From IMG/VR virus record IMGVR_UViG_3300047353_000504, positions 1 through 23,779 of that record: a stretch of DNA of 23,779 nt, one strand, 5' to 3'. The notes beneath the pieces were generated by a model. The model made no database searches. It was not told the DNA's origin and worked only from the letters and a program-made list of their open reading frames with translations. The DNA is from a virus. How positions within the stretch are numbered: the stretch's first letter is position 1; every line of letters begins with the position of its first letter. Made by a program: the position numbers and the translations under genes. This document shows positions 1-20,364 of the stretch, piece after piece.

Positions 1-59
1 AACCTTGGGTAAAAGATAATTATCTTCGTATCCCAGATCGTAAACCTGAGTGGGTGTAA
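1..59 (+). CDS. C-terminal fragment of an unidentified protein (5' truncated)
   Basis: An open frame enters from the left edge (frame starting at base 3) and ends at TAA 57-59. Only about 18 residues are visible, ending in IPDRKPEWV. Its stop overlaps the next ATG (TAATG), the same coupling used along this operon, which is the main reason to believe it is a real gene end. In T4 the gene before 44 is the sliding clamp 45, but nothing in these residues lets me confirm that, so the identity is left open. Confidence 0.45.
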   Translation, partial: PWVKDNYLRIPDRKPEWV

Positions 60-214
60 TGAAAGCAATTAGGGTTGATGTGAAAACCCAAGTCACTGTC
101 CTCATCAACGATGATGATGATTACTGGGCAATCAAACACAATGCAATGCAACAAGTGCATGATGATATTCACTGGCACTTAAAAGATAAATTTGTTATTA
201 ATTATTCTCAATGA
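59..214 (+). CDS. Small hypothetical protein, 51 aa
   Basis: The ATG at 59 overlaps the upstream stop (TAATG), and the TGA at 212-214 overlaps the next ATG at 211 (ATGA). The 51-residue product carries a run of four aspartates (residues 18-21) followed by a His/Trp-rich C-terminal half (HDDIHWH). I recognise no domain, signal peptide or membrane segment. Support for coding comes from its exact end-to-end fit between neighbours in an operon where overlapping starts and stops are the rule. Function unknown. Confidence 0.55.
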   Translation: MKAIRVDVKTQVTVLINDDDDYWAIKHNAMQQVHDDIHWHLKDKFVINYSQ

Positions 215-360
215 AAACTACTTTGACCGTTGATGAAAACGGAATTCTAACATTCCCCGAAAAGTTTCTTGAAGAGATTGGATGGAAAGAAGGGGATTTG
301 TTAGAATGGATTCCTAATGATGACAACTCATTTACTTTGGTGAAAAAAGAACATGCGTAA
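211..360 (+). CDS. AbrB/SpoVT-like swapped-hairpin small protein, 49 aa
   Basis: This 49-residue ORF has the layout of an AbrB/SpoVT/MazE-type DNA-binding half-barrel: a beta hairpin (TLTVDENGILTFPEKF), then LEEIGWKEGDLLEWI and a final strand (SFTLVKK). Family members dimerise to form an intertwined barrel and act as transition-state regulators or antitoxins. No toxin-like gene sits beside it, so an antitoxin role has no support here; a small phage transcription regulator is the simpler guess. The ATG overlaps the upstream stop, and the end (TAA 358-360) overlaps the gp44 start at 353, so it is probably translated together with the clamp loader. The fold assignment is from pattern only. Confidence 0.65.
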   Translation: MKTTLTVDENGILTFPEKFLEEIGWKEGDLLEWIPNDDNSFTLVKKEHA

Positions 361-1297
361 TGAATTTCTTTGGGTCGAAAAATATCGTCCTAAAACTATT
401 GATGAGTGTATCCTTCCTGAGTCTACTAAAAAAACTTTCAGTGAGTTTCTTAAGCAGGGGGAGATTCCCAATCTTCTTCTTGCCGGTCCTGCTGGTTGTG
501 GTAAAACTACTATAGCTCGTGCTCTGTGTGAGCAACTTAATTGTGACTACATAATTATAAATGGATCCGATGAAGGAAGATTTCTTGACACGGTGCGGAA
601 TCAAGCAAAGAACTTTGCTTCGACCGTATCACTTTCGTCAGATGCTAACCACAAAGTCATCATCATTGACGAAGCTGATAACACAACCCATGATGTACAG
701 CTCCTCCTTAGGGCAAACATTGAGGCATTTTATAACAATTGCAGATTCATCTTTACCTGTAACTACAAAAACAAACTCATCGAACCACTCCACTCCAGAT
801 GTGCAGTCATTGAGTTTGGAATCACCGGAAATAAAAAACCAGCAATTGCAGCAGAATTCTTCAACCGTCTCAGGACTATACTTGAGACAGAAAATGTTGA
901 CTATGATCAAAAGGTTCTTCTAGAACTTATTAACAAGCACTTCCCTGATTGGCGTCGTGTATTAAATGAGTGTCAAAGATACTCTGTTGGTGGTAAAATT
1001 GACTCAGCTATCCTTGCTGAATTTGGAGATGTAAAAGTAAATGACCTTATTCAAAAACTTAAGAACAAAGATTTTCAGGCGGTTAGGAAGTGGGTCGTTT
1101 CTAATCTGGACAACGATTCTAGTGTACTTCTTCGTCGTGTGTATGACGCTCTTGTTCCATCCTTGGACGGTCCTAGCATTGCTGCTGCTGTGCTCATTAT
1201 TGCTAAGTATCAATATCAAATTGCGTTCGTAGCTGATCAGGAGATTAATCTTCTCGCAGCATTAACTGAAATTATGGTAGAGTGTAACTTTAAATGA
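353..1297 (+). CDS. gp44: Clamp loader large (ATPase) subunit gp44
   Basis: This is the AAA+ ATPase of the phage clamp loader, which with gp62 opens the gp45 ring and loads it at primer-template junctions. The sequence shows the N-terminal WVEKYRPKTIDE typical of RFC/gp44, Walker A GPAGCGKT (residues 45-52), Walker B IIIDEADN with DEAD at 106-109, sensor-1 FTCNYKN near 134-140, and the SRC arginine-finger motif at 148-150. The C-terminal third would form the collar domain. At 314 aa it matches T4 gp44 (319 aa). It starts at ATG 353 inside the preceding ORF and its TGA overlaps the following ATG (ATGA at 1294). In T4 that following gene is 62; here it is a DNA methylase, and gp62 lies about 2.5 kb downstream. 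Confidence 0.95.
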   Translation: MRNEFLWVEKYRPKTIDECILPESTKKTFSEFLKQGEIPNLLLAGPAGCGKTTIARALCEQLNCDYIIINGSDEGRFLDTVRNQAKNFASTVSLSSDANHKVIIIDEADNTTHDVQLLLRANIEAFYNNCRFIFTCNYKNKLIEPLHSRCAVIEFGITGNKKPAIAAEFFNRLRTILETENVDYDQKVLLELINKHFPDWRRVLNECQRYSVGGKIDSAILAEFGDVKVNDLIQKLKNKDFQAVRKWVVSNLDNDSSVLLRRVYDALVPSLDGPSIAAAVLIIAKYQYQIAFVADQEINLLAALTEIMVECNFK

Positions 1298-2124
1298 AAT
1301 CCTATAAAACTCCATTAAGATACCCTGGCGGCAAATCTAGAGCAGTGCAAAAATTGTTTGCTTATCTGCCAGATAAATCATACGATGAGTTTCGCGAACC
1401 CTTCTTGGGAGGTGGATCTGTTGCTATTGAATGGACTAAGAGATACCCTAACACTGCAGTATGGGTTAGTGATCTTTATGAGCCTCTGGTAAACTTTTGG
1501 CAACATCTACAGTCATCTGGTATTGAGATGCGTAATGAGTTGAATCAACTCAAGCATCGTCATGTTGACCATGCTAGTGCAAAGTCTTTGTTTCTTGAAT
1601 CAAAAGATTATCTTAATGATGGGAAAGATAACTTTCATCGAGCTGTTAGTTTTTATGTCATAAATAAATGTTCCTTCAGTGGTCTTACTGAATCATCTTC
1701 TTTCTCTAAACAAGCTTCGGATAGTAATTTTAGTTTCAGAGGTATTGATAAACTTCCAGTATTTTCTGAACTAATTAAGGACTGGTCTATCACAAATCAT
1801 CCCTATGATTATCTTATGGATGAGAGTTCTGAGAGGGATATATTCATGTATCTAGATCCACCATACGAAATTAAGGATAATTTATATGGCAAAAAAGGAT
1901 CAATGCATAAAGGATTTGACCATGACAAATTCGCTTCGGATTGCAATTTTAATTCATTTGACTCTCTTGTCAGTTACAATTCTAGTCAGCTTATTAAGCA
2001 TCGCTTCAAAGACTGGAATGCTGCAGAGTTTGATCTGACTTATACGATGCGTTCTGTTGGTGAGTACATGAAAGAGCAGCAAGAGCGTAAAGAATTAGTA
2101 CTTATGAATTATGAGGTGGGTTGA
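1294..2124 (+). CDS. dam: DNA adenine-N6 methyltransferase, D12 class (Dam-like)
   Basis: The enzyme transfers a methyl group from S-adenosylmethionine to adenine N6 in DNA. Motifs occur in D12-class order: TPLRYPGGKSRA at the N-terminus (SAM-binding motif X), FREPFLGGGSV (motif I, FxGxG), then the catalytic DPPY (in YLDPPYEIKDN) roughly two-thirds along. The C-terminal LVLMNY is also typical of the family. The 276-aa length is normal for Dam. The start overlaps the gp44 stop (ATGA), and the TGA at 2122-2124 overlaps the next ATG. Placing a methylase between the two clamp-loader genes is unusual. Its specificity could be GATC, but the sequence alone does not show this. Likely roles are self-protection from restriction or marking progeny DNA. 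Confidence 0.9.
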   Translation: MKSYKTPLRYPGGKSRAVQKLFAYLPDKSYDEFREPFLGGGSVAIEWTKRYPNTAVWVSDLYEPLVNFWQHLQSSGIEMRNELNQLKHRHVDHASAKSLFLESKDYLNDGKDNFHRAVSFYVINKCSFSGLTESSSFSKQASDSNFSFRGIDKLPVFSELIKDWSITNHPYDYLMDESSERDIFMYLDPPYEIKDNLYGKKGSMHKGFDHDKFASDCNFNSFDSLVSYNSSQLIKHRFKDWNAAEFDLTYTMRSVGEYMKEQQERKELVLMNYEVG

Positions 2125-3824
2125 TGAAAATTATTGGAATCTATGGTGCCTTAGATTGGGATGCAAATCTTTTTGACAAAAGTGATACTTATATTCATGA
2201 TGCAGGAGCAACTCTGTTTATCAATGGAATTCATATTAGAAGCATTAATGAAGAAAGATTGACTCGTATTAAAGATGACGGTAATTTTCCATATAAGTCT
2301 ATTGAATATGTTCTTGGTGGATATACAAAAGAAGAAATTGATGTTGTTTGTTACCCTATAGCTTATCCTGATATATTTCAGAAACAGCTTGTAGATGGTA
2401 CTTGCAGTAGGATGATTAAGGAACAGTTTCCTAATGCTGAGATTTGGTTATTGTCACATCATCTTTGCCATGCAGCGTCTACAGTCTTTTCTTCACCTTT
2501 CAATAGTGGTAGTTTCTTAACTCTTGATGGACTTGGTAGTGGGATTTGGGATTTTGCTAGTGGTCACCCTCGTGGTGGTGAGAATAATAGTATTGGATAT
2601 TTTGATAAGAGCAAACGCATCTTTAGATTTTTTAGGGGAACTGGTGATCTAGGTATGAACTCATTTGGTGAGTTCTATTGTAATATGTCTCAGATGATTT
2701 ATGATGATAAGCATAAAGAATTGATGCAGCAAGAGTCTAAATTGAAACCTGAGGTAGTAGAAAATATTCAGTTTGCTCAAAACTTTGATGTAACTCCAAA
2801 AGAAGGTAAGATCATGGGATTGTCAGCTTATGGTAAATTGTTAGAAGGGCAAGGACCTCCCACATGCATATCTACCTTGTTTCCTACATCTAATTTTGAT
2901 ATTGATCGTTGGGAAACTGGAATGCCAGAAGTGCATTTCTATGATTATGAAATGTTGTATAATAATCTGAAGGGAACTGTAGAGGATAAAGCATACTATG
3001 TTCAGTTTTGGTTTGAAAAAAGTCTTGAGTATCTTATTCATGAATTAAAAAAAGACTATCTAGAAGAAGATAATTGTTTTGCTGGAGGAACTTTCCTTAA
3101 TGTATGTGCAAATACTATACTGAAACCATTGTTCCGTAATATTCATATTCCTCCGTTTACTAATGACTCTGGAATTCATTTTGGTGCAGCAGCTTGGGGT
3201 GTTTATAGATCTAAAGAAACTATTGAGTTGCCACATAACATTGCACTACTAGGTAACTCTTATGATGACTTTGTTCCAGAAGAAAAAAATTGTAAGCATT
3301 ATGATAATTTTGATGATCTCTGTGAATTCCTAGCAAAAGAATTGGATGATGATAAGATCGTTGGTTGGTTCCAAGGCAGGTCAGAATATGGTCCTAGGTC
3401 TTTGGGATCTAGATCATTGTTGATGAGTCCTAAGAGATCTGAAAACAAAGATATTCTGAATGATAGGGTTAAAAAGAGAGAGACCTGGCGTCCTTTTGCT
3501 GGTATAATGCTAGAAGAAAAAGTTGGTGAGTACTTTGATCCTGGTTTTGTGAGTCCGTATATGTTGTACTCGCAAACTTCCATCACTAAAAAACTTCCTG
3601 CAATTACTCATAAGGATAAGTCATGTAGAATTCAAACTGTAAATGAGCAACAGAATGCTAAAATCTATCAACTTCTTTCTAAACTTGAACCACCAGTATT
3701 GTTGAATACCTCGTTCAATCAAAGTGGAGAACCAATCATTGAGACTCCAGAGGATGCCATTTCCTCTTTTAAAAAAATGGATATTGATTATCTCGTTATT
3801 GGAAATTATTTGTTATGGAATTAA
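2124..3824 (+). CDS. NodU/TobZ-family carbamoyltransferase
   Basis: Members transfer a carbamoyl group from carbamoyl phosphate, through an adenylated intermediate, to a hydroxyl on sugars, antibiotics or, in some phages, modified nucleobases. Visible family features are the N-terminal strand MKIIGIYGAL, the histidine cluster SHHLCHAAS (residues 111-119), LTLDGLGSG (about 132-140), the Kae1-like FAGGTFLNVCAN, and the C-terminal block GWFQGRSEYGPRSLGSRSLL followed by WRPFAGIM and LLNTSFNQSGEPI. The length, 566 aa, is full-size. I chose ATG 2124, which overlaps the dam stop, over the TTG one codon earlier. The last bases overlap the gp62 start. The acceptor substrate is unknown; the neighbouring DNA methylase makes DNA modification one hypothesis and capsular or lipopolysaccharide sugars another. 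Confidence 0.9.
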   Translation: MKIIGIYGALDWDANLFDKSDTYIHDAGATLFINGIHIRSINEERLTRIKDDGNFPYKSIEYVLGGYTKEEIDVVCYPIAYPDIFQKQLVDGTCSRMIKEQFPNAEIWLLSHHLCHAASTVFSSPFNSGSFLTLDGLGSGIWDFASGHPRGGENNSIGYFDKSKRIFRFFRGTGDLGMNSFGEFYCNMSQMIYDDKHKELMQQESKLKPEVVENIQFAQNFDVTPKEGKIMGLSAYGKLLEGQGPPTCISTLFPTSNFDIDRWETGMPEVHFYDYEMLYNNLKGTVEDKAYYVQFWFEKSLEYLIHELKKDYLEEDNCFAGGTFLNVCANTILKPLFRNIHIPPFTNDSGIHFGAAAWGVYRSKETIELPHNIALLGNSYDDFVPEEKNCKHYDNFDDLCEFLAKELDDDKIVGWFQGRSEYGPRSLGSRSLLMSPKRSENKDILNDRVKKRETWRPFAGIMLEEKVGEYFDPGFVSPYMLYSQTSITKKLPAITHKDKSCRIQTVNEQQNAKIYQLLSKLEPPVLLNTSFNQSGEPIIETPEDAISSFKKMDIDYLVIGNYLLWN

Positions 3825-4192
3825 AAGACTGGCTTAATTCCATTAACCTCACCAAAGAAGATCTGAGTGAGGACCCTGAAGATATTAAAAAGTATCCTCC
3901 TTACATCATAAACCGTTGTCTCTCTGGACATTTGGATGCAATCTTATTTGCAAATGAGATGAATAAGAACGCTCATTTATCTAAAGATATGCAGTACCAA
4001 TTCCTACTACATAGCATCAGGAAGAAGAAAAGATTCTCTCCTTGGTTGCGGCAAGACAAGATTGTTGATCTTGAGTTAGTAAAAAAATATTACGGTTATA
4101 GTAATGAAAAAGCACAACAAGCTTTAAAGATTCTGACTTCAGAACAAATAAACTTTATTCGTAAAAAATTGGATACGGGTGGTATCAAATGA
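3815..4192 (+). CDS. gp62: Clamp loader small subunit gp62
   Basis: This is the small, non-ATPase subunit completing the gp44/gp62 clamp loader. At 125 aa it is much shorter than T4 gp62 (187 aa) but carries what I recall as the cyanophage form: WLNSINLTKEDL at the N-terminus, YPPYIINRCLSGHLD near residues 28-42, then LLHSIRKKKRFSPWLR. The call rests on this resemblance and on synteny just before regA. It overlaps the carbamoyltransferase end by ten bases and the next gene by four. In T4, gp44 and gp62 are adjacent and translationally coupled; here gp62 is coupled to the carbamoyltransferase instead, which should affect how the 4:1 ratio is reached. Confidence 0.82.
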   Translation: MELKDWLNSINLTKEDLSEDPEDIKKYPPYIINRCLSGHLDAILFANEMNKNAHLSKDMQYQFLLHSIRKKKRFSPWLRQDKIVDLELVKKYYGYSNEKAQQALKILTSEQINFIRKKLDTGGIK

Positions 4193-5052
4193 AAGTTCTT
4201 AGCATTGATGTTGATTATTGTTTTCCTGCTATTGAGAAATGGCCTAATGAAAATGGTGAACTTTGGGATGAGTGGCATGCTTTTACAAAGTGGGAAAATT
4301 ATTTTAAGACCTATCCTGATCTAAATTGTAGAGAAGAGATCGTAGATGAAAAGTGTTTTGATTATATGGTTGAGACTTTTACTAAGGCTCTGTATGCAAA
4401 TCCAAATGCAACAGTTGCATTTGGACTAGATCATGATTATATTCTCGAAGAACTTCTTGACAAAGAAGATCTGGAAATTGTTAATATTGATCACCATGAT
4501 GATTTTCTGGCAGGTGCATACTTAGATCAACTCACTAATCATGATAAATCAGGAAAAAATGATGATGATGATGAGGACACTTGGTTGCAGTTCTTGTCAT
4601 GTCACCTCATTGAATATCATTATGCTAAAACTTATGGGAAAGTTGATGAGGGTAGTTGGGGAGGATACTTACATGCTTTAGGAAAATTGAAGGCTATGAC
4701 ATGGATTCATAATAATGATAAAGATGAGTATGATACTAGAAGTATTGTGAACAGATTTATTTGTAATAATGTTGGTAAGTATGCTGACTGGGGATTTGCT
4801 ACGGCAGAAGAATATGATCATGGTAATTATGAGTATGATCATATCTTTGTTTGCCTATCTCCACAATATTTTCCACACAGTCAATGGGATATCTTTAGTG
4901 TCTTTCTAGGAATCTATGAAGATTTTACAGGTAAAGACTGTAAGTTAGATGAGTTTTGGTATAAGAGAACTATTAATACGATGGCATATAGAAATGTATA
5001 CGATACTTTAAAACCTGCATTAGAGGACATCAAAAGAAGTTTAGCTAAATAA
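4189..5052 (+). CDS. UPF0489 / peptide-arginase-like metalloprotein
   Basis: The 287-aa product looks like the UPF0489 family, which has an arginase-type metal-dependent hydrolase fold; some members convert peptide-bound arginine to ornithine. Metal-ligand-like stretches are visible: SIDVDYCFP at the N-terminus, FGLDHDYIL near residue 85, and IVNIDHHDDF near 100-108, the counterpart of the arginase D-x-H-x-D motif. There is a run of Asp around 125-131 and, later, CLSPQYFPHSQW, which matches the family's conserved CxSPxxxP-type segment. The start overlaps the gp62 stop by four bases, placing it in the replication operon just ahead of regA. The substrate in a phage is unknown; arginine or a peptide/protein arginine are guesses. 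The family call is from motifs only. Confidence 0.68.
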   Translation: MKVLSIDVDYCFPAIEKWPNENGELWDEWHAFTKWENYFKTYPDLNCREEIVDEKCFDYMVETFTKALYANPNATVAFGLDHDYILEELLDKEDLEIVNIDHHDDFLAGAYLDQLTNHDKSGKNDDDDEDTWLQFLSCHLIEYHYAKTYGKVDEGSWGGYLHALGKLKAMTWIHNNDKDEYDTRSIVNRFICNNVGKYADWGFATAEEYDHGNYEYDHIFVCLSPQYFPHSQWDIFSVFLGIYEDFTGKDCKLDEFWYKRTINTMAYRNVYDTLKPALEDIKRSLAK

Positions 5053-5766: not shown

Positions 5767-6801
5767 ATGCCTAACACAGAACGCACCAGAAAAGGTTTTG
5801 GCGATATCCTGGATCTCGAAAATCCACAGTTAAAGAACCTACCCAAGCCTAAGCAAAAAAACGCAACATTCATCAAGTTTTCTTTCCTTGATCTCGATAC
5901 CGTCGATGAAGAGGATGAGTATTATTGGAACCTTGCTGTCCGGGATGATCAGAACAATACCTCTCGGATTGAAGCAATGCAAGTTTCATATATTAACTAT
6001 GGATGGCTTTATAACGATTTCCCCCCTTGTATTGGTACTGACAATCGTCCTAGAGACGGTAGGACTCGTATCCTTGCAGCAAAGCGTGCTGGAGAGAGGT
6101 GGATTATTGTTGCTATCTTCTCATACGATGACAACGGTAGTCCAATCACTAGCTACATTTCCAATTCTCTTGCCTGTCAGCAGCGTCCTGCATCCACTGG
6201 GGTATGCATTAACGATTTTATTATGGCAGGGATTGCTTGTGTTAATGCTGGAGAATGCTTGCCAGAGAGATCTGCAGTAGAAGACCTCGTTTACAATGAA
6301 CTGCAAGCTGAGAGCTTCTTCTCTCCTCGTGGAGGTGCCATAACCAAGATTGTCAACAAAATCCTTGATGATGTCTTGGAAGAAGGTACATCTGGTGGAA
6401 TCACTGTTGTTAGGAGTCGTGAAGATTGGCAAACTTGGTTGGCAAAAGCCGGTTATGTAAAGGGAGATTATATTCTCCTATCGGTTGACAATCCAACTTA
6501 TGCTATGAGGGCATGGTGTCAGCACTTGCTTCCACACTTTTCTAAGAACAAGTCCACAGCAACCATCATCCTTTACACCAACGCTAAGACTGGTACTAAA
6601 GCTCGGAGGTATATTTCTGAATTTGCAGTAAACCTCCAGTATTACTACACATCTTCATTTGCTATGGTAAATAGGGCACAGTCTGCTGTAGAGATCAAAG
6701 TAGCTGATCCTGCACCATACACTATTGCTGGAGCGATCCCTCAGATCCATGACAATCACAACATTAATTCTTTTAAATTGGTAGATATCTCGGACTACTG
6801 A
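5767..6801 (+). CDS. ParB-like nuclease-domain protein
   Basis: The product (344 aa) contains a segment like the ParB/sulfiredoxin core near residues 95-120: IGTDNRPRDGRTRILAAKRA, then GERWIIVAIFSYDD, comparable to the G-x-R-R-hydrophobic-A-A plus aromatic/valine strand seen in ParB and related phage proteins. The N-terminal part (about 33-82) would set up the domain; the C-terminal half (GGITVVRSREDWQTWL onward) is unfamiliar. ParB-fold proteins include CTP-dependent DNA clamps and DNases, so a role in DNA transactions is plausible but not shown. It stands alone between two terminators behind its own strong promoter and a structured leader, unlike its operonic neighbours. AAAGAA before ATG 5767 is only a weak ribosome site. 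Confidence 0.6.
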   Translation: MPNTERTRKGFGDILDLENPQLKNLPKPKQKNATFIKFSFLDLDTVDEEDEYYWNLAVRDDQNNTSRIEAMQVSYINYGWLYNDFPPCIGTDNRPRDGRTRILAAKRAGERWIIVAIFSYDDNGSPITSYISNSLACQQRPASTGVCINDFIMAGIACVNAGECLPERSAVEDLVYNELQAESFFSPRGGAITKIVNKILDDVLEEGTSGGITVVRSREDWQTWLAKAGYVKGDYILLSVDNPTYAMRAWCQHLLPHFSKNKSTATIILYTNAKTGTKARRYISEFAVNLQYYYTSSFAMVNRAQSAVEIKVADPAPYTIAGAIPQIHDNHNINSFKLVDISDY

Positions 6802-6916: not shown

Positions 6917-7351
6917 ATGACCGACCTTACTAAGTATGGTGCGTCTAACATTGACCAATTTTTGGATCGTGTTCATCGCAACAGCATTGGTATGAACGAA
7001 TACTTTGATCGTTTATACTCACTACATGAGACCACTACTAACTATCCTCCCTACAACCTAGTATCCATAAATTCTGTAGAGTCCAGGCTAGAGATCGCCC
7101 TGGCAGGGTTTAAAAAGGCAGAGTTGTTTGTCTACACACAGGATGGCAAACTCTTTGTAGAGGGTCAGAAAGAGGACAAGGAGACCGAGACTACCTATCA
7201 GCATAAGGGACTAGCACAGAGGTCCTTTACGAGGGTATGGACGCTCTCTGAGGATGTAGAAGTGAAGAGTGTAGAATTTGAGGATGGACTCCTTTCAATA
7301 TGTCTAGCTAGGATAGTTCCAGAGCATCATCAACGCAAGGATTGGTTCTAA
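6917..7351 (+). CDS. hsp20: Small heat shock protein Hsp20 (alpha-crystallin family)
   Basis: Small heat shock proteins are ATP-independent holdases that keep unfolding proteins soluble; they are near-universal in T4-like cyanophages, where virion-assembly or host-protein protection roles are suspected. The 144-aa product has the alpha-crystallin core: YPPYNLVSINSVESRLEIAL (about 46-66), LFVEGQKEDKETETTYQHK, then RSFTRVWTLSEDVEVKSVEF and EDGLLSICLARIVPE. In the last strand the usual G-x-L appears as DGLLSICL. The short C-terminal tail (HHQRKDWF) lacks a clear I-x-I anchor. It stands as a single-gene unit between terminators at 6819 and 7357. Confidence 0.93.
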   Translation: MTDLTKYGASNIDQFLDRVHRNSIGMNEYFDRLYSLHETTTNYPPYNLVSINSVESRLEIALAGFKKAELFVYTQDGKLFVEGQKEDKETETTYQHKGLAQRSFTRVWTLSEDVEVKSVEFEDGLLSICLARIVPEHHQRKDWF

Positions 7352-7356
7352 ATATC

Positions 7357-7381
7357 GGGGGGTTGTTCACCCCCCATTTTT
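7357..7381 (+). terminator. Rho-independent terminator after hsp20
   Basis: Six G plus T (7357-7363) pair with A plus six C (7369-7375) around loop TGTTC, followed by ATTTTT (7376-7381). It begins five bases after the hsp20 stop. Confidence 0.88.
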
Positions 7382-7391
7382 GTGGTATAAT
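7363..7391 (+). promoter_or_regulatory. Promoter for the small-protein/gp43 operon, overlapping the terminator
   Basis: A perfect -10, TATAAT (7386-7391), lies 17 bases after TTGTTC (7363-7368), a weak -35 matching only at TTG. As at 5584, the -35 position falls in the terminator loop. The start would be near 7398, giving a leader of about 16 bases to ATG 7414. Confidence 0.6.
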
Positions 7392-7413
7392 ACCAAGAGG
7401 TAAAAAGCATACT

Positions 7414-7728
7414 ATGTCTGTTAGAGTAGCCATTATCGGTAATGATCAAATCATTGCTGACATCAAAGAGTTGATTGATCCTGAAGACAAGGCTCGTCAA
7501 TATATGTTCAACAATCCATATCGTGTTATCATGCAACCCACCATGTTGCTGAGTGAAGATGCAGGAGAGACCGCAGAAAATACATCCCAAGTATCTCTTG
7601 CTACTTGGCAACCACTCACGCAAGAGACAACCTTTATTGTCAACCCAAACTCGGTTCAAACTATCTTTGAACCAGTTGCTGATCTCAAGTCAATGTACCT
7701 GGAGCTAATCGATAATGTCACAAATTAA
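7414..7728 (+). CDS. Hypothetical cyanophage protein (paralogue of the next gene), 104 aa
   Basis: No known domain is recognised. I use ATG 7414 (MSVRVAIIG) rather than an upstream in-frame start at 7342, because the latter lies inside hsp20 and would read through the terminator and promoter. AGAGG (7396-7400) is a possible ribosome site, though at 13 bases it is rather far. The product appears to share its design with the downstream protein: an N-terminal strand (VRVAIIG), NPYRVIMQ near the middle, a T-W pair, then FIVNPNSVQ and a final helix ending YLELI. It is probably the first gene of the unit leading into gp43. Function unknown. Confidence 0.75.
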   Translation: MSVRVAIIGNDQIIADIKELIDPEDKARQYMFNNPYRVIMQPTMLLSEDAGETAENTSQVSLATWQPLTQETTFIVNPNSVQTIFEPVADLKSMYLELIDNVTN

Positions 7729-8005
7729 AGTCATTGTATTTAAAGAAGACTACAAGTGTATTATCGCTGGAATTGAGGAAGTTGGTGCTGACATTGGTGA
7801 GCCTGACTGTGAATTAGAAAACCCTTATGAGTTTGTAATTCAAGATGACGATTTTGATGGAGACTACAAGGATCGTTTGACACCTTGGAAAGTGCTGAAT
7901 ATTTCCTCCGATAAGAAGTGTAGAATTCAAAGCGATACTATTCTAACTCTAGTTAACCCAGAGACATTTATTCTCGAAGCATACACCGAACTTACCAGTG
8001 AATGA
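7715..8005 (+). CDS. Hypothetical cyanophage protein (paralogue of the previous gene), 96 aa
   Basis: This acidic 96-aa protein is unrecognised as to function. Its ATG at 7715 overlaps the upstream gene by 14 bases, with GGAG (7701-7704) as ribosome site. Its end overlaps the gp43 start by four bases (ATGA at 8002), so it should be co-translated with the polymerase. Corresponding blocks with the preceding protein are IKVIVF/VRVAII, NPYEFVIQ/NPYRVIMQ, TPWKVL/ATWQPL, LTLVNPETFI/TFIVNPNSVQ and a terminal helix ending TEL/LEL. Tandem duplication followed by divergence is the likely explanation. Confidence 0.78.
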   Translation: MSQIKVIVFKEDYKCIIAGIEEVGADIGEPDCELENPYEFVIQDDDFDGDYKDRLTPWKVLNISSDKKCRIQSDTILTLVNPETFILEAYTELTSE

Positions 8006-9423
8006 AATTTTACACTAATGTACAAATGATCGGGGACCAGTTCCTCGTTCGTGCTTATGATAATGGTGAGTACATTCAGTTTCGTGAAAAATACAAACCC
8101 ACATTATTTGTTCCTGCCAAAAAGAAAACATACCATAAAACTCTCGATGGTGATTATGTCGAACCAATTAAACCTGGTTTCGTCTCTGACTGTAGGGAGT
8201 TTTTAAAAAGCTATGGTGAGATAGACAACTTTAAGGTCTATGGTAATGAAAGGTATATCTATCAGTATATTTCTGATAAGTATCCTCAAGATGAAATTAA
8301 ATTTGACGCTAGTAAGATTCGTCTTATTACTGTTGACATTGAAACTCGTGCTGAAAATGGATTTCCTGATGTTGAAGCAGCAGACCAAGAGATTCTGCTG
8401 ATTACAATCCAGGATTATAATACAAAGGAGATCACAACTTGGGGGCAAGGTCCATTTAAGATCAAGCAAGATAATGTTCGCTATATTCAATTCAATAACG
8501 AGCGAGATCTTCTAAGTTCTTTCATCAACTGGTGGATGGAAAATACACCTGATGTTGTTACCGGTTGGAATATTCAGCTTTTCGATATTCCATTTATTGC
8601 AAAGCGTATTGATCGTGTTCTTGGAGAGAAGATTGCTAAAAGGTTATCTCCTTGGGGATTAGTATCGCAAAAAGAAGTTTATATTAAGGGTCGTAGACAA
8701 GTCTTCTATGATATTGGTGGTATTACTCAGTTAGATTATCTTGATCTGTATAAGAAATTTACTTATACTAATCAGGAATCATATCGTCTTGATCATATTG
8801 CTAATGTAGAACTCGGTCAGAAAAAACTTGACCACTCTGAGTATGATACCTTTAAAGATTTCTATACACATGGTTGGCAGAAATTTGTAGAATACAACAT
8901 TATCGATGTCGAGCTCGTAGACCGTCTTGAGGACAAGATGAAGTTGATCGAGCTAGCATTAACTATGGCATATGATGCCAAGGTAAATTATAATGATGTC
9001 TTCTATCAGGTAAGGATGTGGGATACTATAATCTACAACTACCTGAAGAAAAAAGGTATTGTTATTCCTCCCAAAGAAAAAACTGATAAGGATGAAAAGT
9101 ATGCAGGTGCATATGTTAAGGAACCGATTCCGGGAGTTTATGATTGGGTTGTGTCTTTTGACCTTAACTCTCTTTACCCTCACCTTATTATGCAGTACAA
9201 CATCTCTCCAGAGACCCTCCTCGACGAGAAACATCCAACAGCAACTGTTGATAAAATTCTTAATGAGGAAATAAACTTTGAGTTGTATAAGGACAATGCC
9301 GTCTGTGCAAACGGTGCTATGTTCCGTAAAAATAAGAAGGGATTTTTGCCAGAGTTGATGGAGAAGATGTATGGTGAGCGGGTCATCTTTAAAAAGCGTA
9401 TGCTCAAAGCCAAGCAGGAGTAA
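8002..9423 (+). CDS. gp43: DNA polymerase gp43, N-terminal part (exonuclease and start of palm), ends at an in-frame TAA
   Basis: This is the B-family replicative polymerase of the phage. The part holds the 3'-5' exonuclease: exo I VDIET with D112 and E114 (the same numbers as T4), exo II GWNIQLFDIPF (D195), exo III YNIIDVELVD (Y298, D302). Polymerase motif A, FDLNSLYPHL, has its catalytic Asp near 387. The frame stops at TAA 9421-9423 after KKRMLKAKQE, inside the fingers region. Polymerase sequence resumes at once in the same frame at 9424, so this is a nonsense codon in an otherwise intact gene. Adding the stop codon and the tail gives about 831 codons, a normal size for a cyanophage gp43. 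Alone, this fragment has proofreading motifs but no motif B or C and could not polymerise. Confidence 0.93.
   Translation: MKFYTNVQMIGDQFLVRAYDNGEYIQFREKYKPTLFVPAKKKTYHKTLDGDYVEPIKPGFVSDCREFLKSYGEIDNFKVYGNERYIYQYISDKYPQDEIKFDASKIRLITVDIETRAENGFPDVEAADQEILLITIQDYNTKEITTWGQGPFKIKQDNVRYIQFNNERDLLSSFINWWMENTPDVVTGWNIQLFDIPFIAKRIDRVLGEKIAKRLSPWGLVSQKEVYIKGRRQVFYDIGGITQLDYLDLYKKFTYTNQESYRLDHIANVELGQKKLDHSEYDTFKDFYTHGWQKFVEYNIIDVELVDRLEDKMKLIELALTMAYDAKVNYNDVFYQVRMWDTIIYNYLKKKGIVIPPKEKTDKDEKYAGAYVKEPIPGVYDWVVSFDLNSLYPHLIMQYNISPETLLDEKHPTATVDKILNEEINFELYKDNAVCANGAMFRKNKKGFLPELMEKMYGERVIFKKRMLKAKQE
9421..9423 (+). other. In-frame ochre codon interrupting gp43
   Basis: TAA occupies what should be a sense codon between AAGCAGGAG and GAGAAGACGCCT. 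A single base change from TAT or TAC (Tyr) would restore the frame and give KQEYEKTPTEAL, which suits this position. No inserted DNA, intron boundary or homing endonuclease lies here. Confidence 0.9.
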
Positions 9424-9480
9424 GAGAAGACGCCTACTGAAGCACTTAAAAAGGAAATCGCTAGATGTAACAACATTCAA

Positions 9481-10497
9481 ATGGCGAAGAAGATTTCTCT
9501 TAACTCTGCTTATGGTGCTATTGGTAATCAATATTTCAGGTACTTCAAATTAGCGAACGCAGAAGCTATTACTCTGTCTGGTCAGGTCTCTATTCGCTGG
9601 ATTGAGACCAAGATGAATCAGTATCTAAATAAACTTTTGTCTACAGATGGTGAAGACTATGTTATCGCATCTGACACCGACTCAATTTATCTTAATCTCG
9701 GACCTCTTGTTACTAAATTTCTTGGTAATAAGTCTGGCGATAAAGCAGCAGTTGTGGCGTTACTTGACAAGATCTGTCAAGACAAGCTGGAGCCATACAT
9801 CGATAAGTCGTATGAAAATCTGGCGAATTATGTCTCAGCATACGAACAAAAAATGCAAATGAAGCGGGAGAATATCGCTGATCGCGGTATCTGGACTGCT
9901 AAGAAGAGATATATTCTAAATGTATGGAACAGTGAGGGCGTTCAGTACTCTGAACCAAAATTAAAAGTGATGGGTATCGAGGCTGTCAAGTCATCGACAC
10001 CTGCACCCTGCCGTCAAATGCTTAAAGATTCTTTTAAGATTATGATGTCAGGATCAGAAGATAATATGATAGACTACATAGATGACTGCCGTAAGAAATT
10101 CAAGCAACTAACTCCAGAGGACATTTCTTTTCCAAGATCTGTCAGTGATGTTGCAAAATATAAATCCTCTTCGGACATTTATTCTAAGGGAACACCAATC
10201 CACTGTCGTGGAGCTCTTCTATACAATCATTATATTAAGAAAGCGAATCTCACTAACAAGTATTCGCTCATTCAAAATGGTGAAAAGATTAAATTCTGCT
10301 ATTTGAAGAAACCGAATATCATTCATGAGAATGTTATTTCATTCATTCAAGATTTTCCCAAGGAATTAAATATTACTAGATATGTTGACTACGATCTTCA
10401 ATTTAGCAAGGCATTCTTAGAACCTTTGAGGACAATTCTAGATGCTATTGGGTGGTCTGTAGAAAAAACTGCAACTTTAGAGGACTTCTTCTCATGA
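9481..10497 (+). CDS. gp43: DNA polymerase gp43, C-terminal part (fingers, palm, thumb)
   Basis: The fragment holds motif B, KKISLNSAYGAIGN (residues 3-16), motif C, SDTDSIYL with the catalytic pair D65 and D67, and then the thumb. The frame is open back to 9424; 9481 is simply the first ATG after the stop. The 19 codons lost by starting there (EKTPTEALKKEIARCNN and on) belong to the fingers. No Shine-Dalgarno precedes 9481 (the upstream bases are GTAACAACATTCAA), so independent initiation looks poor. Either readthrough, complementing fragments or a sequence error must explain the split. The end overlaps the next ATG (ATGA at 10494). Confidence 0.92.
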   Translation: MAKKISLNSAYGAIGNQYFRYFKLANAEAITLSGQVSIRWIETKMNQYLNKLLSTDGEDYVIASDTDSIYLNLGPLVTKFLGNKSGDKAAVVALLDKICQDKLEPYIDKSYENLANYVSAYEQKMQMKRENIADRGIWTAKKRYILNVWNSEGVQYSEPKLKVMGIEAVKSSTPAPCRQMLKDSFKIMMSGSEDNMIDYIDDCRKKFKQLTPEDISFPRSVSDVAKYKSSSDIYSKGTPIHCRGALLYNHYIKKANLTNKYSLIQNGEKIKFCYLKKPNIIHENVISFIQDFPKELNITRYVDYDLQFSKAFLEPLRTILDAIGWSVEKTATLEDFFS

Positions 10498-17951: not shown

Positions 17952-18635
17952 ATGAAAAATTTTATTGAAGATACAGCCGATCAGATCATGCTTAATAGCA
18001 TGGCAAATGTTTTTATGGAAAAACTTGATCCCGTAGGTCAGGAAGATGATGATATTGATAATGATGGCAAGAAAAATACTAAGTCAGATTCTTATCTAAG
18101 AAACCGTCGTAAGTCTGTCGGTGCTGCTATTGCTGCTGATAAGGCAAAGATGGTAAAGAAAGAGCAGGTTGAATTATCTCTCCGTGAGAGAGTAGCGGAA
18201 TTGACCGAAAAAAAGCTTTATAAGTCTGAGAAAGCTACGACCTCAGATGAAAAAGAAGTAGAAATTTCAGAGAAGTCTGTAAAAAATAAAGTAACTATTA
18301 ATCCTGATATTCAAGAAGGTAAGAAAGGTCTCTGGGATAATATCCATGCCAAGCGCAAGCGTGGCGAAAAACCTGCTAAGAAGGGTGATAAGGATTATCC
18401 TAAAACATTAAATATTGAGCAGACTGAAGATTCTCTGAGAGACCGTCGCATGGAGCGCGGTGGGGTTGATGGCAACAACCGTTACAATAAGGCATCAGGT
18501 AAACCTAATACCTTTGGTAAGAAGAAGAGTTCTTCTGATGGACCTTCTGCCTTGGATGTTGTGAAAGCAAAGATCCGTGCTAAGTATGGTGATAAAGCAA
18601 TCGTGGATACTAAGAAGAAAAAAGAAAAAGATTAA
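17952..18635 (+). CDS. Lysine-rich, highly charged protein, probable capsid-internal or scaffold protein
   Basis: This 227-aa product is dominated by Lys, Glu, Asp and Arg with almost no hydrophobic core beyond the N-terminal helix (MKNFIEDTADQIMLNSMANV). A segment GLWDNIHAKRKRGEKPAKKG, followed by DKDYPKTLNIE, is one I associate with phage head-associated proteins, though I cannot confirm this here. L-x-E or I-x-E sequences that a gp21-type prohead protease could cut occur at SLRE, ELTE and DIQE. The C-terminus is very basic (DTKKKKEKD), as in DNA-condensing internal proteins. A consensus late promoter precedes it, and AGGA (17945-17948) lies close before the ATG. Prohead core or internal protein is the best guess. 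Confidence 0.7.
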   Translation: MKNFIEDTADQIMLNSMANVFMEKLDPVGQEDDDIDNDGKKNTKSDSYLRNRRKSVGAAIAADKAKMVKKEQVELSLRERVAELTEKKLYKSEKATTSDEKEVEISEKSVKNKVTINPDIQEGKKGLWDNIHAKRKRGEKPAKKGDKDYPKTLNIEQTEDSLRDRRMERGGVDGNNRYNKASGKPNTFGKKKSSSDGPSALDVVKAKIRAKYGDKAIVDTKKKKEKD

Positions 18636-19797: not shown

Positions 19798-19988
19798 TGG
19801 ATCGCCGCTTAAAAAAAATCATTAATATAGTAGAAGAAATGATGGCTGCAAATGCAGTCGGAAAATCTGGTGGATTTTCTGATACTTCCGATCCTAAAGG
19901 TCCGGTTGCTGGAAAGCATGTTTATTTGGGCAGAGGCTCAAGAAAAAGGTGGATGAAAGATCGCACTAAGAAAAATGGAAATGGATAA
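19797..19988 (+). CDS. Small basic hypothetical protein, 63 aa
   Basis: The ATG at 19797 overlaps the previous stop (TAATG) and the end overlaps the next start. The first 20 residues form a likely helix (RRLKKIINIVEEMMAAN); the rest is Gly/Ser/Lys-rich and probably flexible (GKSGGFSDTSDPKGPVAGK), ending in a basic patch (RGSRKRWMKDRTKK). This design is common among small accessory proteins in cyanophage late blocks. Function unknown. Confidence 0.7.
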   Translation: MDRRLKKIINIVEEMMAANAVGKSGGFSDTSDPKGPVAGKHVYLGRGSRKRWMKDRTKKNGNG

Positions 19989-20364
19989 CCAAATTAACTC
20001 CGCTATCCTAGAAAGATTAGAAAAAGTAGTTGACTCACTTCAGGATAATTCTATCCAGATGGGTAAACTTCTTGCTGTCCATAATGAGAAATTAGATACA
20101 CAAGATAGAGTTGATGAAATTTTATTTGAAAAATTAGATAGGTTATCTGCAGATCTTAACAGAGAAACTGATGCAATTAAGAAGGGATGTGAAAGAGACA
20201 TCCGCCTTATTGATGATAGACTTAGAGTCTTAGAAAAGAAGATGTGGAGTGTTGCAGGAGCTCTTGCTGTCATCAGTGTCTTGATATCGCCAGTTGGAAG
20301 TAGAGTTGTTGGAAATATCTTGACGAATGGAGAACCACCTGCTAGAATGGCACCAGGCAACTAG
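19975..20364 (+). CDS. Coiled-coil protein with C-terminal membrane segment (XhlA-like layout)
   Basis: The first 85 or so residues are heptad-like and charged (ILERLEKVVDSLQDN, ILFEKLDRLSADLNRE, IRLIDDRLRVLEKKM), predicting a long coiled coil. One hydrophobic span follows at about 91-107 (SVAGALAVISVLISPVG), then a short polar tail with PPARMAPGN. This resembles XhlA-type lysis accessory proteins and some phage membrane adaptors, but there is no sequence signature to settle it. ATG 19975 overlaps the previous ORF by 14 bases; ATG 19981 is two codons downstream. It ends the late block, eight bases before gp61. Confidence 0.7.
   Translation: MEMDNQINSAILERLEKVVDSLQDNSIQMGKLLAVHNEKLDTQDRVDEILFEKLDRLSADLNRETDAIKKGCERDIRLIDDRLRVLEKKMWSVAGALAVISVLISPVGSRVVGNILTNGEPPARMAPGN

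Follow-up and report, generated by a model that had tools for sequence, protein, structure and literature searches.

How would a phage make its replicative DNA polymerase from a gene that carries a stop codon within the enzyme's own reading frame, with nothing inserted at that point? The question is raised by the gp43 gene of the virus record IMGVR_UViG_3300047353_000504 of IMG/VR, a stretch of 23,779 bases analysed at its full length (hereafter the window), whose top isolate matches are Synechococcus phages. Positions 8002-10497 of the window read in one frame through 832 positions with a terminal TGA and one internal stop, a TAA at codon 474 (9421-9423), and the comparisons below confirm a gp43-type frame of 830 residues, of the cyanophage kind, broken at that codon without insertion. 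The parts of the frame are as follows.

8002 to 9423, plus strand: N-terminal piece of gp43, 473 residues, with the exonuclease domain, the first part of the palm with motif A, and the first fingers helix.
9421 to 9423, plus strand: the in-frame TAA, which occupies codon 474, a position that is aromatic in the relatives.
9424 to 9480, plus strand: 19 sense codons (475-493), still polymerase-like and in ungapped alignment to relatives, with no in-frame ATG, GTG or TTG.
9481 to 10497, plus strand: C-terminal open reading frame (ORF) of gp43 from the next ATG (residue 494), 338 residues, with motifs B and C and the remainder of the polymerase.

The two adjacent ORFs jointly cover one PolB polymerase, both in Pfam and in matches to solved structures. 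The N-terminal piece matches DNA_pol_B_exo1 (4.4e-25) and DNA_pol_B (3e-19), and the DNA_pol_B profile is divided between the pieces, with profile positions 19-143 in the first and 146-237 in the second. The string FDLNSLYP lies before the stop, and KKISLNSAYG and ASDTDS lie after it in the same frame; we take these to be motifs A, B and C respectively. The first piece matches the solved T4-type polymerase 1clq, presumably RB69 gp43, up to chain residue 493; for 9424-10494 the matches to solved T4-type polymerases begin at chain residue 548 or 549. Because the structure matches stop at 493 and resume at 548-549, the break falls in what we take to be the fingers domain, with the fingers being shorter here; fragment alignment with split gp43 genes, together with these flanking structure residues, places it at the fingers tip. 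An AlphaFold model of the intact gp43 of a close relative (L002) is poor as a whole, with a mean predicted local distance difference test score (pLDDT) of 44.4 and a predicted template modelling score of 0.32; locally, two helices meet at residues 477-479 within a block of pLDDT 59-79 spanning 461-490, a modelled junction that may weakly agree with the fingers tip.

The closest relatives obtained, L002 and L003, share with the window 89% DNA identity in the second piece and 86% in the first, and both carry an uninterrupted cyanophage gp43, the same gene at the same length. The L002 protein has 831 residues, so the window's gene is of normal length and nothing has been inserted. Codons 475-493 (EKTPTEALKKEIARCNNIQ) align with L002-L010 free of gaps, and, since the relatives align ungapped, the break holds neither an insertion nor an intron. 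The sequence past the stop shares 94% identity over 357 residues with the unbroken gp43 of L002 and L003, and its frame is therefore not a product of chance. Identity to isolated phages whose gp43 is likewise uninterrupted is lower, at 80% for the C-terminal piece against Synechococcus phage S-T4 and 81% against S-SM2, in a comparison listing 60 of 2,503 phage records with a related second piece. The original prediction, made from the letters of the window, had described an in-frame TAA without insertion in a gene of normal total length, exonuclease motifs and motif A before it, motifs B and C after it in the same frame, and 19 intervening codons that still read as polymerase; each of these statements is borne out.

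What the stop replaces can be read from the relatives, both L002 and L003 having TAT where the window has TAA. For a count we used the best 80 of at least 600 IMG/VR loci matching the second piece, found with patterns not involving codon 474. Among these loci the codon is TAT in 71, TAC in eight, TTT in one and a stop in none, and among the 78 distinct sequences they contain the corresponding numbers are 70, seven, one and none. The alignment of relatives proposed with the original prediction thus has tyrosine at this position in 77 sequences and phenylalanine in one, and a single substitution in a tyrosine codon, as had been suggested, would explain the break. The stop was not seen in any independent record, whether among the 78 distinct relatives or among the five matches to an IMG/VR motif scan allowing TAA, TAG, TGA or TGG (TRR) at codon 474, all five of which have TGG. 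The same motif with TAT, TAC, TTT or TTC (TWY) at this codon gives at least 120 matches, and the exact 37-base local string around the stop has no match in IMG/VR, searches of which may leave out records very near the window. A wider count of 176 distinct sequences (TAT 155, TAC 17, TGG 3 and TTT 1) was dropped as an unfair sample, because most of the added loci came from the scans that fix codon 474 (TWY and TRR).

The condition of the gene on either side of the stop is ordinary. Ratios of nonsynonymous to synonymous substitution rates (dN/dS) for the second piece are 0.028-0.085 between the window and six relatives and 0.040-0.074 among those relatives; for the first piece they are 0.025-0.042 and 0.021-0.047 respectively, all of them rough values in that many dS estimates exceed 1 and are near saturation. 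As judged from these ratios, the downstream half of gp43 is under ordinary purifying selection. In the first 350 columns of the downstream half, no otherwise invariant column is altered in the window. Each gp43 piece has one residue that no relative shows; gp41 also has one, gp44 has four, and UvsX and Hsp20 have none, counts that are all within the range of the relatives themselves. RegA, with four, and gp62, with five, are on the high side: the RegA count equals or exceeds that of 46 of the 50 relatives and is surpassed in 4, and the gp62 count equals or exceeds that of 36 of the 44 and is surpassed in 8. In a synteny comparison with seven stretches from six contigs, most other genes of the window match relatives across their full length, and the gene order around gp43 is conserved in L090 and L091, which are longer stretches of L002 and L003. 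Decay of gp43 as a pseudogene was ruled out, its dN/dS and private changes being ordinary. The stop is a single substitution away from a conserved codon, private to this record, with no decay elsewhere, and because the substitution ratios, the private changes and the other genes are all ordinary we regard it as one isolated change, either recent or artificial.

We propose that one wrong base in the metagenome-derived consensus, and not a base that the phage really carries, has turned an aromatic codon, normally tyrosine, into TAA; the real phage would then most likely produce an ordinary DNA polymerase of family B as a single chain of about 831 residues. To a one-base consensus error in an otherwise intact cyanophage gp43 we give somewhat better than even credence, and the stray stop is most likely either a sequencing error or the mark of a dead mutant and not a new way of making the enzyme. 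Error is favoured over a dead mutant because, as we reason, an error needs thin coverage at one place, whereas a mutant must dominate the reads. Several points weigh against a consensus error. At least three other phage lineages have gp43 split at the fingers tip, which is where this stop is found, and by an after-the-fact estimate about 1-2.5% of random stops would fall within those 10-20 or so of the 831 codons. Neither gp43 nor UvsX nor gp41 gives the impression of a generally error-prone contig. Elsewhere in the window the ORF at 5767-6801 is without a match in the seven syntenic stretches, the ORFs at 17952-18635 and 19975-20364 match relatives partly or weakly, and several genes past about 15 kilobases have matches from just one or two relatives. 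Finally, three of the stretches read a stop within the region matched by the ORF at 7342-7728, the true start of which probably lies further in.

A lone stop of this kind is to be expected at a low rate in similar contigs. In eight gene segments homologous to those of the window, taken from contigs of the same kind, there is one internal stop per 237,239 aligned codons. Divided by source, this is one stop in 87,417 letters for loci matched through the second piece and none in 150,141 for loci from the pattern scans. The sole example is in L033, where codon 268 of uvsX is TAG (L033:5239-5241). It resembles the gp43 stop of the window in being a lone in-frame stop in a conserved gene with the frame intact on both sides, and differs in gene and position. 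Identical matches and those below 55% identity were removed from this count, which leaves out L001, L082-L096, L102 and L221-L225, and the rate is rough: overlapping copies of one contig may be included, and ranking by match score may disfavour broken genes. It corresponds to about 0.03 lone stops expected per window of about 7,500 coding codons, with a range of roughly 0.001 to 0.2 from the single event. The lone stop is thus expected background, and a survey of many windows meets such cases because the rate is about three per hundred windows; the background rate cannot separate an error from a true mutation. A published parallel is Acinetobacter phage ZZ1, for which the available part of the account describes many apparent split genes that were judged to be assembly errors and were amended by polymerase chain reaction and sequencing; ZZ1 gp43 itself is reported as split in the same paper (PMC4177764). 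Two other irregularities were noticed among the collected records. The isolate record L102, outside the background count, has a stop close to the C-terminus of RegA, and in the gp41 helicase of L155:1-1354 (minus strand) a 24-residue stretch occurs twice, each time in another frame, which is probably a fault of assembly.

The original prediction had listed an error, readthrough, two assembling fragments or a defective genome as options, and these remain the right ones to weigh. After a consensus error, the best of them is that the TAA is real and is a recent null mutation, lethal or nearly so, of the sequenced virion or clone, giving a defective genome with no mechanism to explain. This agrees with one substitution absent from the 78 distinct relatives in a gene without decay elsewhere, and with the similar lone TAG in the L033 uvsX. 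A defective genome would, however, have to dominate the local reads in order to enter the consensus, and gp43 is listed among the core genes of T4-like viruses in the accessible portion of one survey (PMC2993671). We consider a null mutation possible, but clearly the less probable explanation. The functional readings, in which the phage makes a two-piece or a recoded polymerase, are together unlikely, and the weight that we keep for them is owed mainly to the position of the stop at the fingers tip.

Under the first of these, the 473-residue piece and a C-terminal piece begun downstream would assemble into an active polymerase, the break having arisen by point mutation and not by insertion. 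It draws support from naturally split gp43 genes. The breaks of Aeromonas phage 44RR, Acinetobacter phage Ac42 and Synechococcus phage ACG-2014f lie in the same fingers-tip segment as codon 474 of the window. The closest case is ACG-2014f (KJ019111), a cyanophage gp43 broken at the fingers tip, with an upstream piece (43A) of 491 residues, two small ORFs belonging to PHROG families of unknown function, and a downstream piece (43B) of 389 residues (31-1506 and 1878-3047 of L227, which is KJ019111.1 118690-123733). About 370 bp separate the pieces; 43A extends past the region of homology, and the separate start of 43B lies ahead of the second fingers helix. All 45 matching phage records, which belong to one phage group and include four RefSeq copies, contain the junction DNA, with the reading frames checked in KJ019111. 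No published description of this split was found in the literature searched, which was mostly without subscription papers. In 44RR2.8t the break is also in the fingers, with 49 bp between 43A and a 43B that has its own start codon; in Ac42, again broken in the fingers and with a separate start codon for 43B, the pieces are set apart by seven small ORFs, none of them named as an endonuclease in the annotation. Aeromonas phage 25 has an endonuclease gene between pieces broken in the fingers, likewise with its own 43B start, and according to the available part of one report its 43A and 43B co-purify with polymerase activity (PMC2988022).

Two marine contigs, L114 and L188, have a cyanophage-like gp43 in two ORFs, as in the window. 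In L114:663-3900 (minus strand) the gene is split after 426 residues by a 188-residue HNH endonuclease ORF (Pfam 4.3e-9), and in L188:1468-4269 (minus strand) the pieces have 427 and 452 residues, with an HNH-like remnant between them and an ATG at the start of the second. Both breaks lie near window residues 407-415, before the fingers and unlike that of the window, so that not all gp43 splits are at the fingers tip. The original prediction had held that known splits go with inserted DNA and homing endonucleases. The inserted DNA is present in these cases; the endonuclease part holds for phage 25 and L114, and not for the 49 bp of 44RR or for the intervening ORFs of Ac42 and ACG-2014f.

Two further interrupted genes were met in the course of these comparisons. 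In Vibrio phage vB_VmeM-32 (L222, KU160494.1, positions 1-4507) gp43 is annotated in several pieces, separated by a homing-endonuclease-like ORF and another ORF. In L219:4878-6672 (plus strand) uvsX is broken directly after GETSTGK, which we take to be its Walker A motif, and after CARGSEKIV and a 322-residue ORF the uvsX sequence resumes; this interruption looks like an intein or a homing insert. No Rfam families were found in L114, L188 or L219 at gathering thresholds.

The splits of 44RR, Ac42 and ACG-2014f combine inserted DNA with a 43B start of its own, and the window has neither: there is no extra DNA relative to L002, and no start codon that would keep the second fingers helix. One local feature could favour a restart.

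9416 to 9420, plus strand: AGGAG, a Shine-Dalgarno-like sequence within the glutamine-glutamate codons just ahead of the stop.

AGGAG is also present in L002 and L003, and is for that reason ancestral coding sequence. At the usual spacing past it the only in-frame codons are AAG and ACG, both poor starts. The next start is the ATG at 9481, residue 494, which is an invariant methionine in 20 aligned relatives; as an invariant codon of the continuous protein it did not evolve as a start. In a simple score for pairing with the anti-Shine-Dalgarno sequence, 9481 is weaker than 23 of the 27 usable gene starts in the window and has almost no Shine-Dalgarno sequence. The original prediction had noted this absence of a ribosome site, correctly, and had counted it against clean reinitiation; as an argument it is weak, because the start of gp43 itself at 8002 also scores zero. 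The stronger argument is the loss of protein, in that a start at residue 494 would drop residues 475-493; in 44RR, Ac42 and ACG-2014f, by contrast, 43B starts ahead of the second fingers helix. With the break shared by none of the 78 distinct relatives as well, we think a functional two-piece polymerase very unlikely in this phage.

A recoded polymerase, still a little less probable, would arise by readthrough of the UAA or by a hop of the peptidyl-transfer RNA over it, with residue 474 present or absent in the product. The geometry for a hop is there.

9418 to 9426, plus strand: GAG TAA GAG, matched codons on either side of the stop, permitting a stop-hop from GAG 9418-9420 to GAG 9424-9426.

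The frame and the selection on it are intact past the stop, as recoding would require; synthetic stop-hops use such matched codons, and according to the review that describes them, hopping over an in-frame stop has no known natural example (PMC5009743). Bacteria have been reported to carry in-frame stops subject to purifying selection (PMC7918605). The matched flanks are no evidence of design, however, because identical codons flank the sense codon in 23 of the 78 distinct relatives and are thus ancestral, and the conserved stop by which bypass or readthrough might be recognised is seen in none of the 78. No transfer RNA (tRNA) gene was found in the window. That this polymerase comes from a gene broken by point nonsense alone, as two assembling pieces or through a natural GAG-UAA-GAG stop-hop, is in our estimate quite unlikely. 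Reassignment of UAA to a sense codon, for which the continuing frame is the only point in favour, was rejected as barely credible, because 13 of the 28 other listed gene ORFs terminate in TAA, no other window gene was seen to be interrupted by TAA, and the window (as distinct from the rest of the genome) yielded no tRNA gene.

The surroundings of gp43 are recorded here for completeness. A small ORF (7715-8005) lies immediately upstream, and a 55-codon ORF and then uvsX follow downstream. The ORF at 5767-6801, of 344 residues, lies between regA and hsp20 and has no Pfam or PHROGs match at an E value of 0.001. Between what we take to be the clamp-loader genes gp44 and gp62, positions 1294-3824 contain an ORF resembling, as we presume, a methylase, together with a carbamoyltransferase (Pfam Carbam_trans_C, 4.3e-57), an order that is repeated in L090, L091 and L093.

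If the TAA is an error, the locus is a caution that an interrupted essential gene in a single metagenomic record is weak evidence of biology, because related contigs show about one lone stop per 240,000 codons (from one event). A real and functional TAA would instead illustrate the origin of split replicative polymerases and supply a natural case of recoding or reinitiation in an essential enzyme; a two-piece state produced by point nonsense would then be a first step toward the splits of ACG-2014f and 44RR, before any insertion. In either case the comparison has revealed the fingers-tip split of ACG-2014f and the splits of two marine contigs, and the question of a two-piece gp43 can be tested in cyanophages.

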